Origin: an uncultured Chlorobiaceae bacterium
GTDB lineage: Bacteria > Bacteroidota > Chlorobiia > Chlorobiales > Chlorobiaceae
Direction of reading: 5' to 3'
DNA length: 34,909 nucleotides
Assembly: GCA_903840935.1 (NCBI GenBank)
Contig: CAIMHT010000098.1
Coordinates: forward strand, 1-34,909
The position numbers and the translations under genes were made by a program. Below are positions 995 through 27,902 of this stretch, in pieces; position 1 is the stretch's first letter, and every line of letters starts with the position of its first letter. Under the pieces are notes generated by a model, which worked only from the letters and a program-made list of their open reading frames with translations, had not been told where the DNA came from and searched no databases.

Positions 995-3916
995 ATGACG
1001 CGCTATATCCCCATATTAACCATCGGGATACTTTTTTTGCATTTAATTTCCTGTAAGCCCATGATCAACAAAGAAAAGCCTTATCCATACACGACTGTTC
1101 CCGGAGACTCCCTCCACACAAGAATTTATACGCTCAAAAATGGACTGACGGTCTACATGAGCCCTTACAAAGACGAACCAAGAATCTACACATCGATTGC
1201 CGTACGGGCAGGAAGCAAGAATGACCCGGCCGAGACAACCGGTCTTGCTCACTATCTTGAGCACATGCTCTTCAAGGGAACTGATTCACTTGGCTCTCTT
1301 GACTATGCAAAAGAGCACACCGCACTCGAAAAAATCTCCGAACTCTATGAGCAATACCGCGCAACCGAAGATGTGGAGAAAAGGGCGGCCATCTACAAGG
1401 ATATCGACAGCATCTCCAACGTGGCTGCAACATATACGGTACCAAACGAATACGACAAGATTCTGAACTCAATCGGCGCCCAGGGCACCAATGCCTACAC
1501 CTGGGTGGAACAGACCGTCTATGTCAACGATATTCCCTCGAACAAGCTTGACCAGTGGCTCTCCATGGAGGCGGAACGGTTTCGTAACCCGGTTATGAGG
1601 CTCTTTCATACGGAACTCGAAACCGTGTATGAAGAGAAGAACATGACAATGGACAGTGACAGCCGGAAAATATGGGAAAATCTTTTTGCCGGACTTTTCA
1701 AAAAACACACCTACGGCACCCAGACCACTATCGGAAAGGCCGAGCATCTGAAAAATCCCTCGATTCGCAATGTCGTTAACTACTACAAGAGCTACTATGT
1801 GCCTAACAACATGGCACTCTGCATTGCCGGGGATTTTGATCCGGATGCAACCATAAAGCTGATCGACAAAAAGTTTTCGGTGCTTCAGCCCAAAGAGGTG
1901 CCCCACTTTACCCCGGCGGTGGAAGATGCAATCAAGGAACCCCTGGTCATCAAGGCAAAAGGGCCCGAATCTGAAGAGATCGTAATCGGATTCCGCTTCA
2001 ATGGTATCAACAACTCTGATGCCGATTACATAACGCTTGCCGACAAGGTGCTGTTCAACCAGACAGCCGGCCTGATTGACCTTAACCTGAACCAGCAGCA
2101 GAAGGTACTCGATGCCGGTTCGATGCTGATAATGATGAAAGATTACTCCGCCCATATTCTGAGTGGGAAGCCGAGGGAGGGCCAGAGCCTCGACGAAGTG
2201 AAGGATATGCTGCTCGCCCAGATCGAACTGCTCAAAGAGGGCAAGTTTCCTGACTGGCTGATTGAAGCGGCAATCAACGACATGAAAATAGAACAACTGA
2301 AGCTCTATGAAAGCAATAGGGGGCGCGTTGAAGCCTACGTTGATGCGTTTGTCTGGGGTATGGCCTGGCCCGATCATGTAAGCCAGATTGAGCGTCTTCA
2401 GAAAATCACAAAAGAGGATCTTGTTGCATTTGTCCGGAAGCACTACAGCTCGAACTATGTCGCAGTCTACAAAGAGCACGGCACTCCCAAGAGCGAAACA
2501 AAAATCCAGAAACCACCGATCACCCCGCTGAAGGTGAACCGGAACAGCTCGTCTCCATTTGCCGAGAAACTGCTGGCGCTGAAATCAAAAAAAACTGAAC
2601 CGGTCTTTCTTGACTATAAAAAGGATATCGGTTTTTTTGATGTCAACCCATCCATCAAGCTGAACTATCTGCAAAACAACGAAAACGAACTCTTCTCGCT
2701 CTATTATGTCTTCGATATCGGGAAAAACAACAGCAAAAAAATAGAACTTGCCCTTGAATACCTCTCCTATCTCGGAGCAGGCAACCTTACTCCTGCTGAA
2801 TTCAGCCAGGAACTTTATAAAATCGGCGCAAGCTTTTCGGCATTTACTTCCGACGATTACGTCTACCTTAAGCTTTCGGGACTTCAGAAGAACTCTGCAG
2901 CCGCCATTCGACTGCTTGAAAATCTTCTTATTAATGCAAAACCCGATCAAGAGGCTCTTGAAAAGCTCAAAGCCGGCACACTGAAAGAGCGTACCGATGC
3001 CAAGCTTGCCAAAAAGAAGATTCTCTTTGAGGCGATGACCAATTATGGCAAATACGGCCCATCCTCGCCCTTCACCAACATCCTCAGCAATGAGGAGCTT
3101 GAACAGGTTACCTCTAACGAGCTGCTTGATGAGGTGCACAACCTCCTGCAATACAGCCACAGGGTACTTTACTACGGCCCTGCAACGTCAGCGGAAGTGC
3201 TCAGTGAACTGCGTTCGGTGCGCCATTACCCAGAATTGTTCAAGACTCCGCCGGTCACCGACCCCTTCCATGATCTTGAGCAGCACGAGAATCTTGTCTA
3301 TGTCGTCAATTACGATATGACCCAGGCGGAGGTCATTCTGATGACAAGAGATCAGCTCTACAATCCATCCATACTCCCCCTCTCCACCCTCTTCAATGAA
3401 TATTACGGAGGCGGGATGTCGTCCGTGGTCTTCCAGGAGTTGCGTGAAGCCAAAGCGCTCGCCTACTCTGTTTTTTCAGTTTACAAAACACCGAAACAAA
3501 AAGATGAGCACAACTATATTGTCAGCTACATCGGCACCCAGGCAGACAAGCTTCCCGAAGCGCTCGATGGTATCAGCATTTTGATGAACAAGCTGCCTGA
3601 ATCACCCGAACTTTTTGCTTCAGCCCAAAACGGCATTTTGCAGAAAATTTCAACCGAGCGGCTGACGAGAACAGAGATTCTTTTCAATTACGAAGAGGCT
3701 GTCCGGCTGGGGCACGACCATGATATCAGGAGGGATATTTATCGTGATGCGGCTTTGTTCACTCTATCCGATATTGAAAAATTTCACAGCGACCATTTCA
3801 GGAACAAAAAACATGTCATGCTGGTGCTTGGCAAGAAAAAAAATCTTGACATGAAAACCCTGAAGAAGTATGGCACCGTAAAAGAACTCACGCTGAAGGA
3901 TATTTTCGGCTATTAA
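995..3916 (+). CDS. M16-family zinc metallopeptidase, predicted lipoprotein
   Basis: This is a long (973-residue) M16 protease of the pitrilysin / insulinase class, which holds two M16 repeats in one chain. The inverted zinc motif HxxEH is H86-Y-L-E89-H90, and the downstream acidic pair E207 and E214 (in [11 protein letters not shown]) matches the third metal ligand region. The second half lacks an HxxEH motif, as expected for the inactive partner domain. I chose the ATG at 995 because it gives a short hydrophobic leader ending in a lipobox, LISC, with Cys20 as the lipidation site, and has AAAGAG just upstream; the frame stays open back to 848, but that extension is unlike a leader. The protein is probably anchored in the periplasm and degrades peptides there. 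The LptF/G-like gene follows 42 bp downstream on the same strand. Confidence 0.9.
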
Positions 3917-3958
3917 ACAGTGCCTTCTGCACCCACCCTGGTGGTGGTTTGTTTACCT

Positions 3959-5038
3959 ATGAAAATTCTCAACAAGTATATATTCAGGCAGTTTGCAAAG
4001 GCTTTTGTTTTCAGCTCAATAGCCTTTGTCTGCCTGTTCGTTCTCGTCAATATGGTTGAAAAACTTGGCGAGTTCATGGACAAAAATCTCTCTCTGTGGG
4101 ATATTGTCTGTGATTACGCTCTGTCGATACCCTCCATCATTCTCGTCATCTCTCCAGTGAGCGCACTGCTCTCCTCAATACTTGTTGCCGGAAGACTCTC
4201 CTTTTCCGGTGAGCTTCCTGCAATACGCTCTGCCGGTGTCAGTATGCGCCAACTTCTTGTTCCCTTTTTTGCCGGCGGCATGATTATTCTCGTCCTGAAT
4301 CTTCTCAACGCATGGTGGATTTCGCCCTCGGCAGTTACCGAAAAGAATGCTTTTGAACAGCGCTCTTTCAATAATAATTCTGCTAATCTTCATGAAAACA
4401 GCAATATCCATATTCTCGAACCGGGAAGACGTATGGTCTCTATAGGCACCGTCAATCCTGACTGCTCCATACTCAGCGCCGTTTCCATCGAGGAATTCAA
4501 CGGCACACGGCTCATATCGCGAACCGACACAGATACCATGCGTTACGACCAGAAAAAAAGCGAATGGATAATGCAGAACGCTTCAATCCGCTTTTTTACC
4601 AGAGGGAGTGAAGCGTTTCATTTCGCACCGGTAAAACCACTGAAACTTGCACTTTCTCCGAATTCACTGGCGGAGCTTAATCTTCAGCCTGATGAAATGA
4701 ACATCATCCGCCACTACCAATACCTTTCAAAAAAGCAGAAAGCTGGTTTTTCCGGACTGGAACGCTCAATGGTAAAATTTCACAACAAAATAGCCCTGCC
4801 ATTCGCCTCTCTCATCATCATTCTTATCGGTGTACCACTTTCCGCAAAAAAAAAGCGGGGTGGACTCGCCTCTGAAATAAGCGTCACCCTTTTCGTCGGT
4901 TTTCTCTTTTTAGGAGTACAAAAAACCAGCGCAATCGCCGGAGACCAGGGGATGCTAAACCCGATGCTCGCCGCATGGCTTCCCAATATTCTCTTTCTCG
5001 GCATCGGCTATGCCATCTATAAAACCGCTATCGACTGA
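3959..5038 (+). CDS. LptF/LptG-family (YjgP/YjgQ) permease
   Basis: This 359-residue integral membrane protein belongs to the family that forms the inner-membrane channel of the lipopolysaccharide transporter LptB2FG. The N-terminal half has transmembrane segments at about residues 12-32, 50-75 and 96-118, with a cytoplasmic coupling stretch GELPAIRSAG between them. A periplasmic beta-rich part follows (about 120-260), and three more segments fill the last 100 residues, including the conserved LIGVPLSAKKKRGG. The start at the ATG MKILNKYIFRQF is typical of the family; a GTG at 3920 is also in frame but less likely. The sequence does not show whether it is LptF or LptG. It lies between the M16 gene and the SAM hydrolase gene, 5 bp before the latter, and is probably cotranscribed with both. 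Confidence 0.88.
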   Translation: MKILNKYIFRQFAKAFVFSSIAFVCLFVLVNMVEKLGEFMDKNLSLWDIVCDYALSIPSIILVISPVSALLSSILVAGRLSFSGELPAIRSAGVSMRQLLVPFFAGGMIILVLNLLNAWWISPSAVTEKNAFEQRSFNNNSANLHENSNIHILEPGRRMVSIGTVNPDCSILSAVSIEEFNGTRLISRTDTDTMRYDQKKSEWIMQNASIRFFTRGSEAFHFAPVKPLKLALSPNSLAELNLQPDEMNIIRHYQYLSKKQKAGFSGLERSMVKFHNKIALPFASLIIILIGVPLSAKKKRGGLASEISVTLFVGFLFLGVQKTSAIAGDQGMLNPMLAAWLPNILFLGIGYAIYKTAID

Positions 5039-22700: not shown

Positions 22701-23486
22701 ATGATGAAAAGTATACCATACCAAAAATTTTCTCCAGGAACAGCCCCAAATGCTTCAGGTTTGCAGATTTGCCGGTTTGATGATTTGGCCGAAGAAAAAC
22801 AACTTGTCTCGTGTCTGATGGTCACTCGTGGAAATATGGAGCTGATCAGACAATCTTACCGTTCATATAAATCACAATCATGGAAACATCGTGAACTTGT
22901 TATTGTATCCGAAAATGTCAGCGATGAACTCAGGTGCCTCGCTGATGATGACTGTGGAGAGATAAGGCTTGTCGAAGTCCCAAAAGGGTCATTCACTCTT
23001 GGAGATCTTCGAAATCTTTCTGTAGCAAGATCACGTGGTGACTTCATCTGTCAATGGGATGATGATGATCTTTACGACCCGGACAGAATCTCTATTTCCA
23101 TGAAAGTGCTCATCGAATCCTCAGTTGAGGCCGTCTTTCTATACAGATTATTACTCTGGTGGGAGAGTAGAGGTCGTTTATCTATTTCCTCTTCAAGAGT
23201 TTGGGAGGGAAGTATATTCGCTCGCAGATCAGCAATTTCTATATACCCGTCATTTGCAAAAGGTGAAGACAGTATAGTGACCGAAAGGATTATCAGAAAT
23301 AATCCTGTATCGCTGATAAATTATCCTCAATTATATTGTTATAGAGTTACCGGAAAAAATACATGTGATGTCAATCACTTTGAAAACTGGTTCAACCATT
23401 CTTCCAAAGTATTCAAAGAAGAAGAGTTCGAAGCAGTTTTCAAACTACCTTGTTTTCGTTTTGCGAATAATGAATTAATAGGGTAA
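22701..23486 (+). CDS. Family 2 glycosyltransferase (GT-A fold), copy 1
   Basis: This predicted glycosyltransferase of 261 residues probably transfers a sugar from a nucleotide-sugar to a surface glycan or a protein. The GT-A beginning is LVSCLMVTRGNMELIRQS (about residues 35-52). The metal-binding acidic motif is FICQWDDDDLYDP with D120-D123, and a later conserved block AKGEDSIVTE would hold the acidic catalytic region. No membrane segment is seen, so it should act in the cytoplasm or loosely at the membrane. Two ATG codons in a row open the gene; the ribosome binding site is weak. A second copy follows after 14 bp. Donor and acceptor cannot be told. Confidence 0.82.
   Translation: MMKSIPYQKFSPGTAPNASGLQICRFDDLAEEKQLVSCLMVTRGNMELIRQSYRSYKSQSWKHRELVIVSENVSDELRCLADDDCGEIRLVEVPKGSFTLGDLRNLSVARSRGDFICQWDDDDLYDPDRISISMKVLIESSVEAVFLYRLLLWWESRGRLSISSSRVWEGSIFARRSAISIYPSFAKGEDSIVTERIIRNNPVSLINYPQLYCYRVTGKNTCDVNHFENWFNHSSKVFKEEEFEAVFKLPCFRFANNELIG
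22991..23140 (+). repeat. Near-identical patch shared with the second glycosyltransferase (unit 1)
   Basis: These 150 bases match 23860-24009 with five differences by direct comparison, including one unbroken run of 56 identical bases across the DDDD motif. The genes on either side of the patch are clearly more divergent, so the patch looks homogenised. Confidence 0.8.
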
Positions 23487-23500
23487 ATGACATAAAGGTC

Positions 23501-24388
23501 GTGCTTGATTTGATTTTTTTTGATCCGCTTATCTACTGCGCACTTATAATAATACCCTTTTTTTTCGTTATCGTGCAATATATTCCATTCAGGAAATTTT
23601 CGGCAGGAACAGGCATAAGCGCTTCATATAAAAATATTTGTAGGTTTGAAGAGTCGTTAAGTGAACATCAACTGGTTTCATGTGTCATGGTCACACGTGG
23701 GGACATGGACTTGATCTATGCCTCTTATAGCTCATTTAAATCACAATCATGGAAGAATTGCGAACTTGTGATTGTTTGTGATAATGTTGGCGATGAACTC
23801 AGGAGCCTCGCTGACGAGGACTGTGGAAAGATAAGGCTTGTCGAAGTCCAAAATGGAGCATTCACTCTTGGAGATCTTCGAAATCTTTCTGTAGCAAGAG
23901 CACGTGGAGAATTCATTTGTCAATGGGATGATGATGATCTTTACGACCCGGACAGAATCTCTATTTCCATGAAGGTGCTCATCGAATCCTCAGTTGAGGC
24001 CGTCTTTCTCTGCAGATGGTTAATGTGGTGGGAGAAAAGAGGACTGCTATCAATTTCTCCTTCAAGAATTTGGGAAGGAAGCTTGTTTGCTCGTAAATCC
24101 GCAATTTCAATATACCCGTCAATTGCAAAAGGTGAAGACAGTGTGGTGACAGATTGGATTACGAAATATTACTCTATTTCACTGATAGATTATCCTCAAC
24201 TTTATTGTTACAGAGTTACTGGCCAAAATACATGGACAATTAATCACTTTGAACAATTGTTTGGAAATTCTTCAAAAGCATTCAAAGCAGATGAGTTTAT
24301 CACTGTTTTTAAATTACCATGTTTTCAATTTGCTTATCTCGACAAAACAGGGAAACAGATGAGCGTTCCGGTCACGTACAGCAGGTAG
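23501..24388 (+). CDS. Family 2 glycosyltransferase (GT-A fold), copy 2
   Basis: This paralogue of the preceding gene has the same blocks: LVSCVMVTRGDMDLI, QWDDDDLYDPDRISIS with D143-D146, and AKGEDSVVTD. It is read from GTG at 23501, giving 295 residues with a hydrophobic N-terminus (LDLIFFDPLIYCALIIIPFFFVIV) that copy 1 lacks and that could anchor it in the membrane. A GTG at 23573 gives the start that aligns with copy 1 (VQYIPFRKFS) and would remove the anchor; AAGG stands just 3 bases before the first GTG. Both are possible. The C-terminus is 12 or so residues longer than copy 1 (ending PVTYSR), and the stop lies beside a recombinase remnant. Confidence 0.8.
   Translation: MLDLIFFDPLIYCALIIIPFFFVIVQYIPFRKFSAGTGISASYKNICRFEESLSEHQLVSCVMVTRGDMDLIYASYSSFKSQSWKNCELVIVCDNVGDELRSLADEDCGKIRLVEVQNGAFTLGDLRNLSVARARGEFICQWDDDDLYDPDRISISMKVLIESSVEAVFLCRWLMWWEKRGLLSISPSRIWEGSLFARKSAISIYPSIAKGEDSVVTDWITKYYSISLIDYPQLYCYRVTGQNTWTINHFEQLFGNSSKAFKADEFITVFKLPCFQFAYLDKTGKQMSVPVTYSR
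23860..24009 (+). repeat. Near-identical patch shared with the first glycosyltransferase (unit 2)
   Basis: This is the second unit of the 150-base patch, offset by 869 bases from the first. It starts ATTCACTCTTGGAGATCTTC in both copies. Differences are concentrated at five positions around 23900-23917 and at 23974. Confidence 0.8.
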
Positions 24389-24641: not shown

Positions 24642-25880
24642 ATGATACGTCAAAACTCAACTTTGACAGGCACCCTTGACACGCTATCAAAAAGCCACTG
24701 GAAAACCCAGCACCCTGCTGCAGGGTATACCAAGTGGATGAGTGTGATTGATGAAAATATCGTCCACACCTGGGTTGAGGTTGACGCGGGACAGAGTGTT
24801 GTTCTTGACGTTATGGACAGCGAACTATTGCAGCTTGTGCTCACAGAATCCGCTCTCCTGAACCAGCAGTTTCACATCCTGTTCGATCTGGCCCACATCT
24901 CCAGCATTAGCTTCGACTACAAACAGGCTATTGCGGATCTCTTTTATAACTGGAGCCCGATTCTCGGGGTCGTAGGTTTTTACAATATTGCAGACTCCAT
25001 GCGCATAATTGTAGAAACTTTTGCAGCGATCGCTCCTGAGACAATTTGCGTCCTACTGACCGAAACCTATGAAGAGGCCATTGAAAATACCATTGCATTC
25101 AAGGCAGGAAAACTTTCACAAATGGAATCATGCTATGTGAACCACGACACAGACCACGCACTAAAAAAACGGTTTCTGGAGGTCGTGGCAAGGATATCCT
25201 GGCTTGATATGCTTGACGAGCAAATAACGACGCCACCGCCTGGCCACCACTATTATCTATTTTTCAAGGCAATAGACTTTTTGCGCACTGACCTTATAGC
25301 AAGAGAAGCAAAAAAAGAGAGCGAACTGCAACAGCTTAAACAGGACTTTGAATATCGAATAACCCAGATGGTTATAAAAATAAATGCACAAACGGAGGCA
25401 AACAAAAAGTACAGTCGCGACATGGGAAACGAAATAGCCGCTCTTACAAGAAAAATTGAGAGTCAGGATATAGAACTGACAAAACTTACGACGGTCATTA
25501 ATAACAATAAAAAGAGGTTGCGTGATCTTCTTGACAAGATAGGCGCACTTGAAATTGATCCAGTTGTTAAAAACGACATCACCAATTCCTGCCTGAACCT
25601 TATTGATAAAGGGTCTATCGAAAAACAACTGGATATCGAACTGACGAAGTCCGATTCACTTTTTTTATCCACACTGGAAAAAAAATGCCCCTTCCTCAGC
25701 CCTCGCGAACTGAAAATCAGCCTGCTTGTCAAGTTAAACTACGACACCTCAGAGATTGCCCATTCCATCGGTCTCTCGACCAGAGGCATGGAAAGCATCC
25801 GCTACAGAATGCATAAAAAGCTTGGCCTTGGAAAACACCAGTCAATCAAGAGCTTTCTTTCAGAACTCGTGATTTCATGA
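24642..25880 (+). CDS. LuxR-type regulator with STAS-like N-terminal domain and coiled coil
   Basis: From the ATG at 24642 the protein has 412 residues. About 33-157 form an alpha/beta region resembling SpoIIAA/STAS-type domains (VVLDVMDSELLQLVL, FHILFDLAHISSISF, then GVVGFYNIADSMRIIV). About 219-296 is a coiled coil with many Lys, Glu and Ile heptads. The end (about 352-396) is a LuxR/GerE-like helix-turn-helix of the kind found in Bacteroidetes regulators: LSPRELKISLLVKLNYDTSE and STRGMESIRYRMHKKLGL. It likely senses a signal through the STAS-like part and binds DNA as a dimer. AGG lies a few bases before the ATG. The frame stays open upstream and encodes a cysteine cluster, so a start at GTG 24528 is possible. 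It ends 5 bp from the kinase gene on the other strand. Confidence 0.75.
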   Translation: MIRQNSTLTGTLDTLSKSHWKTQHPAAGYTKWMSVIDENIVHTWVEVDAGQSVVLDVMDSELLQLVLTESALLNQQFHILFDLAHISSISFDYKQAIADLFYNWSPILGVVGFYNIADSMRIIVETFAAIAPETICVLLTETYEEAIENTIAFKAGKLSQMESCYVNHDTDHALKKRFLEVVARISWLDMLDEQITTPPPGHHYYLFFKAIDFLRTDLIAREAKKESELQQLKQDFEYRITQMVIKINAQTEANKKYSRDMGNEIAALTRKIESQDIELTKLTTVINNNKKRLRDLLDKIGALEIDPVVKNDITNSCLNLIDKGSIEKQLDIELTKSDSLFLSTLEKKCPFLSPRELKISLLVKLNYDTSEIAHSIGLSTRGMESIRYRMHKKLGLGKHQSIKSFLSELVIS

Positions 25881-25885
25881 GATGC

Positions 25886-26791
25886 CTATTGCACAGAAAG
25901 TCCCTGTGGAACAACCGAAATCACAATCCTGCCGGAAATATTATCATAGACCTCCCCGTCCAAATGCATAACATCAGCAGTATCAAGCGTTACCTCAACA
26001 CGCTTCGCCTTGCAGTAAAGAACCTGTGAATCGCTGATATGGGTGCCACGAAGATATTTGAGCACATAGCCGAAAAACTGATGTTTTGGCACCGCCTTGA
26101 GAATACAGACATCGAGCAAACCGTCCGACAACTCAGCATGCGGAGCTATCCTGAATTTACCTCCCTCAACTTTTCCATTCAAAACAGAAAAAACAAAAAC
26201 CGGCCCATGAAGTTCGATGAGAGAATCCTCAAGAGTGATCTTGATACCCATGGTTATAGGCTTGTAACCAAAAAGGACGCTCATAAGCGCATAAACGTAA
26301 ACAATCTCTCCTTTTAACCAGGTTGACTGTTGAACGCTTTTTGCAATTCTTCCGGTAAAACCGATGCCCAAAGAATTTATGAAATAACGATGCCTCGCAT
26401 TGCCATAAGAGACACTGCCAAGATCAACATCTTTACTTTCCCCATCAAATAAACGGGTGATCCCCAAGTCTACCCTGTCTTGGGGAGAGTGTGTTTTGAC
26501 AAAATCATTTGCCGACCCGATCGGCAGAATTCCGACCGTGACACCTTTTCCCGCAACCGCATTAACCACTTCATGAAGCGTTCCATCTCCACCGCACGCA
26601 ATCATACAAGTATCGGTACCTGTCTCAGAACGAGCAATAACTCCCGCATGTCCAGCATACGTTGTCGTAAAAAGAACCGAGTCTTGCCTTCCGGAGAGGA
26701 GTGCTTTTAGCCATTCAGCCCTGCGCGAAGCACGTCCCTTGTCTGCTGCGGGATTAAAAATAAAAATGTAACGAGACCGGTTTTTCGTCAT
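25886..26791 (-). CDS. Diacylglycerol/sphingosine kinase-family lipid kinase
   Basis: This 301-residue soluble lipid kinase has the DAGK catalytic domain: the ATP loop ACGGDGTLHEVVNA (GGDGT at 67-71), then ILPIGSANDFVK, and the C-terminal block HLDGEV. Members phosphorylate diacylglycerol or related lipids in phospholipid recycling (DgkB, YegS, BmrU groups). The N-terminus YIFIFNPAADKGRASRRAE is the usual first strand and loop. The ATG at 26791 is clear. It is convergent with the STAS-LuxR gene and its nearest upstream neighbour is the second regulator pointing away, so it sits between two paralogues on the opposite strand. Confidence 0.88.
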   Translation of the reverse strand: MTKNRSRYIFIFNPAADKGRASRRAEWLKALLSGRQDSVLFTTTYAGHAGVIARSETGTDTCMIACGGDGTLHEVVNAVAGKGVTVGILPIGSANDFVKTHSPQDRVDLGITRLFDGESKDVDLGSVSYGNARHRYFINSLGIGFTGRIAKSVQQSTWLKGEIVYVYALMSVLFGYKPITMGIKITLEDSLIELHGPVFVFSVLNGKVEGGKFRIAPHAELSDGLLDVCILKAVPKHQFFGYVLKYLRGTHISDSQVLYCKAKRVEVTLDTADVMHLDGEVYDNISGRIVISVVPQGLSVQ

Positions 26792-27207
26792 ATTGAAAAC
26801 TGAAAATAGCTCAAAAAGTCTCTGCCTGATTACTTACGCTGGCAAGATAACGGTAATGATCGAACATCTTGACAAACAAATAATTCACTCACAGGGCTTA
26901 CGTGTCTGTACATTTCAACAACCTATCCGCCCGACCATATACAAAACAAATAGCTGTGGAAGTATAAAGCAAAGCGCAAGCGTGTTTTTACACAGAACTA
27001 CAAATATATTTTGCATTATTATAAAAAAAAGCGAATATTACTGCCGCTAACACGTCGATCAACGGGAGCGTTGAGACTAAAAGTAAGTGAAAGAGAAGTT
27101 GTGCTGACATTATAAGTCGTTGTGTTTTTCTTATTCTTTGGAAAACCAATCTGGAATTGATGTGGCAGAATCACGGTAAAGTAATTCCGTGAAATCAGGA
27201 GAGTGAG
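26792..27207. other. Intergenic region between the lipid kinase and second regulator
   Basis: These 416 bases show no gene I can support. They hold one small perfect stem, TCAACG-GGAG-CGTTGA at 27059-27074. Promoters for the kinase (leftwards) and the regulator (rightwards) should lie here, but I cannot fix either with confidence. Confidence 0.4.
27197..27203 (+). promoter_or_regulatory. Ribosome binding site deciding a GTG start
   Basis: AGGAGAG ends 4 bases before the GTG at 27208. Its strength makes that GTG, rather than the in-frame ATG at 27334, the likely start of the short regulator. Confidence 0.6.
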
Positions 27208-27837
27208 GTGAACTGGGAGGAACCCTCATGTTGTATACGGCAAATCCTTCAAGCTGTTTCGAGAATCTGCCGTTTCAGAGACGTTGAACAGCGTAAAGAT
27301 GTTACCATAAAACTGAATAACCCGGATGATAAAATGAACGCACACGTAGAAGAAACCAACAAAAGCAGTGTTGATTACGAAAAAGAGATTGCTGTTCTTC
27401 GTAACAGAATTGCGAATCAGGATTTGGAACTGACAAGAGTTTCTACAGCAATTGCTGAAAAAACAAATTCATTGCGCAATCTTCTTGACCAGATACATGC
27501 CCTTGAAATCGATACCACTGTAAAAAGATCGATGACTGATTCCTGTTTGAGCCTTATTGAGACCGAGACTATTGAAAAACGTCTGAACATAGAGCTCACT
27601 GAGTCTGACTCTGTCTTTTTGTCGAAACTGCAGAAAAAACATGCCAACCTCAACCAGCGTGAGCTGAGAATAAGCCTTCTTGTAAAACTGAACTACGACA
27701 CCAGAGAGATTGGCCGCTCGGTTGGCATCTCAACAAGAGGAATGGAAAGCATCCGCTACAGAATGCACAAAAAACTCGGACTTGGAAAACACCAGTCAAT
27801 CAAGACCTATCTTTCAGATCTTGCTGTTGCTTTATAA
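27208..27837 (+). CDS. Short LuxR-type regulator, paralogue without the sensor domain
   Basis: This 209-residue protein matches the last 160 or so residues of the 412-residue regulator. It has the same coiled coil (about 55-105, EKEIAVLRNRIANQDLELTR), the same linker (LEIDTTVK and IEKRLNIELTESDSVFL) and an almost identical helix-turn-helix (about 148-192, ending STRGMESIRYRMHKKLGL and GKHQSIK). The STAS-like domain is absent and replaced by about 45 unrelated residues including a CC pair. The strong ribosome binding site and the good terminator behind it suggest a working gene, not a leftover. It may form mixed dimers with the larger paralogue or act without a signal; this is inference. Confidence 0.72.
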   Translation: MNWEEPSCCIRQILQAVSRICRFRDVEQRKDVTIKLNNPDDKMNAHVEETNKSSVDYEKEIAVLRNRIANQDLELTRVSTAIAEKTNSLRNLLDQIHALEIDTTVKRSMTDSCLSLIETETIEKRLNIELTESDSVFLSKLQKKHANLNQRELRISLLVKLNYDTREIGRSVGISTRGMESIRYRMHKKLGLGKHQSIKTYLSDLAVAL

Positions 27838-27866: not shown

Positions 27867-27902
27867 AAAAGCCTCTGTTTCTTCTGGAAGCAGAGGCTTT
27901 TT
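27867..27902 (+). terminator. Intrinsic terminator after the short regulator
   Basis: AAAAGCCTCTG at 27867-27877 pairs perfectly with CAGAGGCTTTT at 27891-27901 around a 13-base loop, 29 bp past the regulator stop. The A and T runs make it usable in both directions. Confidence 0.85.

Follow-up and report, generated by a model that had tools for sequence, protein, structure and literature searches.

The two regulatory genes described here, found in a window of 34,909 nucleotides (the whole stretch of DNA that was analysed) from an uncultured Chlorobiaceae bacterium, are best explained by the loss of a sensor: a regulator residing in a conserved chromosomal slot probably discarded its sensor domain, and the genome would now encode two regulators that form homodimers independently of each other and use the same recognition helix. 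The lineage of the genes, the polarity of the change, the purifying selection and the predicted folds are shown by the comparisons reported below, and the mode of action is proposed in conditional terms.

The two regulators and their neighbourhood

The features of the locus are the following (window coordinates).

24642..25880, + strand: large regulator ("K" type, beside the kinase), 412 aa, with STAS-like N-domain, coiled coil and LuxR-type helix-turn-helix (HTH)
24681..25121, + strand: STAS/SpoIIAA-like alpha/beta domain of the large protein, codons 14-160 (AlphaFold2, Foldseek against the PDB, residue counts in 81 proteins)
25254..25547, + strand: single long helix (coiled coil) of the large protein, codons 205-302 (AlphaFold2)
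25647..25874, + strand: LuxR/GerE-type HTH of the large protein, codons 336-411 (predicted fold, weak profile matches)
25886..26791, - strand: YegS/BmrU-family lipid (diacylglycerol-type) kinase gene (TIGR00147, Pfam DAGK_cat/YegS_C; conserved neighbour)
27036..27056, + strand: slot-gene promoter signature TATTAC-N8-ACACGTC (sole exact match in the window's genome)
27057..27333, + strand: leader of the short gene, its start inferred from the promoter signature (3' part, 27209-27333, conserved)
27237..27272, + strand: inverted repeat in the leader, possible RNA hairpin (modest covariation)
27244..27291, + strand: sensor-coil junction remnant in the leader, ILQAVSRICRFRDVEQ; counterpart in the large protein, FLEVVARISWLDMLDEQ (junction profile compared with shuffles and controls)
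27334..27837, + strand: short regulator, 167 aa, coiled coil and HTH without N-domain (paralogy, conserved start, orthologues, dN/dS)
27867..27901, no strand assigned: strong intrinsic terminator, flanked on either side by A and T runs, so that it could act on both strands (folding energy)

A preliminary description of this DNA had reported two genes on the same strand sharing a coiled coil and an HTH, with a lipid-kinase gene between them on the opposite strand. This arrangement was confirmed: the two proteins are paralogues, 61% identical over 167 residues (BLASTP, E 3e-67), and the intervening YegS/BmrU gene, which ends 5 bp from the stop codon of the large gene and is divergent from the short one, matches TIGR00147 with 153.7 bits against a cut-off of 118.65. 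The short gene is also followed, as had been proposed, by a strong terminator (-22.9 kcal/mol, z -5.3), which sits between convergent genes and may serve the short gene and the aldehyde dehydrogenase gene alike. Immediately 5' of the large regulator lie two tandem glycosyltransferase-like paralogues, about 70% identical (22701-24388, + strand).

The last 40 residues of the two proteins had been called nearly identical, which is true of a 25-residue core, STRGMESIRYRMHKKLGLGKHQSIK, identical in both, as is the recognition helix, but not of the whole segment, where 31 of 40 positions agree in the window's genome and 25 to 35 in other genomes. Gene conversion of the C-termini was ruled out, the synonymous divergence of the paralogues being equal within (0.65) and between genomes (0.67), so that their likeness must come from selection.

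Concerning the start of the short gene, 31 aligned orthologues agree on the equivalent of ATG 27334 or a nearby position, giving 167 aa. The longer frame from GTG 27208 must be abandoned, since neither this start nor the GGGAGG taken as its ribosome binding site is conserved in relatives. The site described as strong, GGGAGGAACCCTC-ATG (27229), opens another frame that stops after 19 codons, and GGGAGG falls inside the leader, 5' of ATG 27229.

The orthologues of the short protein are 80-96% identical, and in seven close genomes its dN/dS is 0.045, while the large protein gives 0.29 for the N-domain and 0.29 for the coil-HTH part; relative to synonymous change, the large copy in the window's clade evolves about six times faster than the short one. 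The earlier suggestion that the short gene is functional is therefore strongly supported, and its conservation in relatives, whose failure would have spoken against it, was verified. A decaying copy might be suspected in a gene born by truncation whose leader still carries a coding remnant, but such a pseudogene is hardly conceivable at this dN/dS and identity in a gene that almost every genome of its branch carries, and the selection data already refute it.

Predicted domains and known relatives

In the AlphaFold2 model of the large protein, an N-terminal alpha/beta domain is followed by one helix spanning residues 205-302, in agreement with the coiled coil previously noted, and by a C-terminal HTH. 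Modelled alone, the N-domain reaches a pLDDT of 89, and its top PDB matches in Foldseek are anti-sigma-factor antagonists and SpoIIAA (4hyl and 1th8, probability 1.00, TM to target 0.62-0.72), although no match in this search has an E-value below 0.001. The statement that only the large gene carries a STAS-like domain thus stands, and the contrary outcome, a predicted fold unrelated to STAS/SpoIIAA, did not occur.

At the sequence level the N-domain does not reach the curated threshold of the Pfam STAS family (PF01740). A Pfam search with it gave no match, STAS was not among the matches listed for 43 family members, a profile search of the PDB retrieved no STAS chain, and sequence searches of Pfam, NCBIfam and the PDB returned nothing usable. 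Against true STAS domains, hhalign gave probabilities of 2-18%; in the alignment with those of related genomes, of weak probability, the STAS signature D-S-S-G falls on S90-F91-D92-Y93 of the large protein. Among 81 proteins compared, Y93 and K94 hardly vary.

These alignments bear on whether the N-domain could be a canonical STAS phospho-switch, phosphorylated by a GHKL kinase like SpoIIAB or CapK, as the predicted fold would allow and as the STAS-HTH protein CapS indeed operates (PMC13373217). The position of the phospho-acceptor serine, at the start of helix alpha2, carries Y, F or L in the 81 proteins with few exceptions, albeit in a weak alignment, and no Ser/Thr column within residues 10-159 reaches 85% in them. 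The conserved phospho-acceptor of SpoIIAA/RsbV is absent, which makes a switch of that type unlikely; we regard it as already disfavoured and very improbable.

For the output half, the designation LuxR is supported with a reservation. The fold agrees with a LuxR-type HTH, Foldseek pairing it with the C-terminal domains of DosR, VraR and the Bacteroides protein 3clo (probability 0.99-1.00, E 0.2-0.4), but the scores with PF00196 (GerE), 15.5 and 14.0 bits, lie below the Pfam cut-off of 23.5; the profile matches 37 of 43 family members at E<=1 (best 2.7e-4). The name therefore rests on fold and weak profile matches. Unlike these LuxR/GerE regulators, the proteins have no receiver domain and their N-terminal part is a coiled coil.

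Three known groups can be compared with the large protein. CapS, a repressor described in 2026 as a STAS-winged-HTH regulator (PMC13373217), likewise joins an N-terminal STAS fold to a C-terminal DNA-binding domain in one homodimeric regulator (here we infer the dimer); it differs in its winged HTH (ArsR/MarR-like), conserved phospho-serine and partner kinase CapK, where our protein has a LuxR-type HTH, a long coil and no conserved serine. SpoIIAA/RsbV share the predicted fold of the N-domain (Foldseek probability 1.00, TM to target 0.72 to 1th8_B and 0.70 to 4hyl_B), but the domain studied here has no significant sequence match to them and no phospho-serine, and is fused to coil and HTH. The SpoIIAA-like/CRAL-TRIO-like proteins (2q3l, DUF3478) also have a SpoIIAA-like fold (TM to target 0.64). 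Binding to membranes or to nonpolar ligands has been proposed for them (PMC2954212) and would suit a lipid-kinase neighbour; they are stand-alone proteins without HTH, and their identity to our N-domain is low.

Fusions of a STAS fold to a DNA-binding domain are hence already known from CapS (PMC13373217). What sets the present case apart is that a STAS fold is joined to both a long coil and a LuxR-type HTH, that this combination is confined to Chlorobiaceae and that the sensor's loss could be traced. No paper on STAS plus LuxR in Chlorobi was found, nor any experiment on a member of the family, and it was fair to call the combination unusual: using the N-domain profile on 394 genomes, 86 of them Chlorobiaceae, we found it in 78 of these 86, with no match elsewhere in the sampled part of the phylum. 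The coil-HTH part, searched with a profile of the short protein, is present in 84 of the 86.

The regulator slot and the loss of the N-domain

The slot is bordered on one side by the divergent YegS/BmrU lipid kinase; on the other side many genomes have genes for aldehyde dehydrogenase and RsgA on the other strand. Sampled loci hold a full-length regulator in 23 cases and a short one in 47. In the tree of these 70 slot genes full-length and short occupants are separated by one change, with the full-length genes on the side of the outgroup, the sister genus, whose 22 genomes possess only full-length copies, usually two in tandem. The fork has a support of 74%, a weak value with which two or more losses of the N-domain would also be compatible. 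In the window's relatives the large gene stands on the opposite flank of the kinase, tail-to-tail with it; a branch of 23 rows in a wider tree unites 21 such genes with two copies whose loci are different or unplaced.

The promoter signature TATTAC-N8-ACACGTC indicates what happened in the slot. In eight full-length slot genes it is found at -55 to -56 from the ATG, and it precedes 43 of the 47 short genes at -130 to -390, except one at -47, suggesting that the promoter stayed in place while the N-domain coding between promoter and coil was lost. Upstream of other copies the signature is rare (K 2/21, U 1/16, E 2/25; 0.027 expected per shuffled region); the copies that share a label do not form a single clade in a tree of all paralogues, which is a point against the reading preferred below. 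Where present it occurs once per genome, save in one contaminated genome with two short genes, and it was therefore rejected as a shared regulon motif at that stringency. No operator was found, and the signature may be a promoter only.

A trace of the lost coding also survives. When a profile of the sensor-coil junction (residues 168-262) is run against the leaders, 13 genomes give a match, always at the same place; it corresponds to FLEAVARISWL and scores above nearly all of 940 shuffles, while three control profiles have no match there. It should be noted that these leaders are related, so the 13 matches do not count as independent. The frame directly 5' of the short start has kept, in several genomes, a likeness to the large protein's coil. 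Between kinase and short gene no whole decayed N-domain was found, only the junction remnant, save in genomes with a real upstream copy.

Other copies of the family were recorded as well. An upstream full-length copy (L057 in genome G001, 3536-4725, + strand) is broken by a stop or frameshift into N-domain and coil-HTH pieces, and the slot copy of genome G035 has a TAG within the N-domain region. The window's genome contains a third coil-HTH fragment (L092, contig G000:C35, 465-713, - strand) with 36-42% identity and an internal stop, probably a pseudogene remnant. Many more diverged coil-HTH proteins without N-domain occur at other loci (L089, L090, L091 and L229 among other matches), members reach up to nine per genome, and sensor-less copies seem to have arisen repeatedly there. 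In the sister genus an inverted repeat, ACACCTG...CAGGTGT, is conserved between the tandem full-length genes, 30-110 bp before the downstream one (L190-L199), and is possibly an operator or a leader hairpin.

Alternative readings and proposed mechanism

A full sensor beside a sensor-less partner had been taken to suggest a mixed-dimer switch, in which the short protein pairs with the large one through the shared coil and exists to titrate or tune it. Coil and HTH are indeed common to both, and about 39 genomes combine a short slot gene with some N-domain gene; but the short protein is not always accompanied by a full-length partner. Eight Chlorobium genomes keep it without any N-domain (G011, G016, G020, G172, G205, G223, G307 and G348), seven of them 97-100% complete, and this state requires at least six gain or loss changes on the short tree, so the switch cannot be obligatory. 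Moreover, other lineages have only full-length copies, the coil-HTH part of the large protein evolves at its dN/dS of 0.29 while the short protein is near-static, not as an obligate interface predicts, and the short gene's promoter signature is absent 5' of the large gene in the window. As the reason for the pair a mixed dimer is unsupported, and we give it only a minor chance; a facultative heterodimer through the coil is possible but not needed.

A further alternative is that RNA control replaced sensor control, the leftover leader folding into a CGGC..GCCG hairpin and a GCTGTT-AACAGC pseudoknot and regulating translation of the short gene. The 3' part of the leader is more conserved (0.69) than fourfold sites (0.54) in 24 genomes, it is single copy and found only before short genes, its loop GCTGTT is complementary to the downstream AACAGC, and the proposed pairs are formed in 86% of cases against at most 60% when slid, with a covariation score exceeded by 1 of 500 shuffles. 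On the other hand, pairs changed on both sides are no more numerous than in shuffles (181/500), RNAalifold yields only a nearly invariant helix, the window's leader has an ordinary folding energy (z 0.15), the invariant GCTGTT is also the Ala-Val codon pair of the coding remnant, and the element is absent in other short lineages; an Rfam search with the leader gave no match. Such control appears unlikely, and so does the wider scheme, in which evolution split a one-protein sensor-regulator by deleting the sensor, made the output half its essential, constant component and turned the lost coding sequence into a conserved and structured mRNA leader now in control.

In the preferred reading, discarding of the sensor from the slot regulator, both genes belong to a family of regulators built from a STAS-like N-domain, an extended coiled coil and an HTH of LuxR type, and the ancestral locus would have comprised a lipid kinase and an aldehyde dehydrogenase, both in reverse orientation, with a single full-length regulator or two of them in between. 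In one Chlorobium branch the resident regulator would have lost its N-domain coding and kept promoter, coil and HTH as the short gene, the lost segment shrinking to an untranslated leader, usually of about 100-350 nt, with a coding remnant. The large gene, here tail-to-tail with the kinase, would be an older, faster-evolving paralogue. The short protein most likely acts as a coiled-coil homodimer no longer gated by any ligand or partner of the STAS-like domain, its activity set by the level made from its own promoter and leader; from its position, its likeliest target would be the divergent lipid kinase, its own gene or both. The large protein would be a homodimer gated by the STAS-like domain without serine phosphorylation, perhaps through a hydrophobic ligand or a protein partner. 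Since their recognition helix is identical, the two proteins probably see the same or overlapping DNA sites and compete there.

At this locus the loss of a domain from a transcription factor can be followed unusually well: the promoter, the coding remnant, the two states of the locus and the selection acting on each part are all legible, and the output half is under stricter conservation than the sensor-bearing copy. It also advises caution: large/short pairs should not be read as dimer switches before genomes with a single member have been checked. Finally, it names a sensor domain family, so far found only in Chlorobiaceae and encoded beside a lipid kinase; little is known of regulation in these phototrophs.
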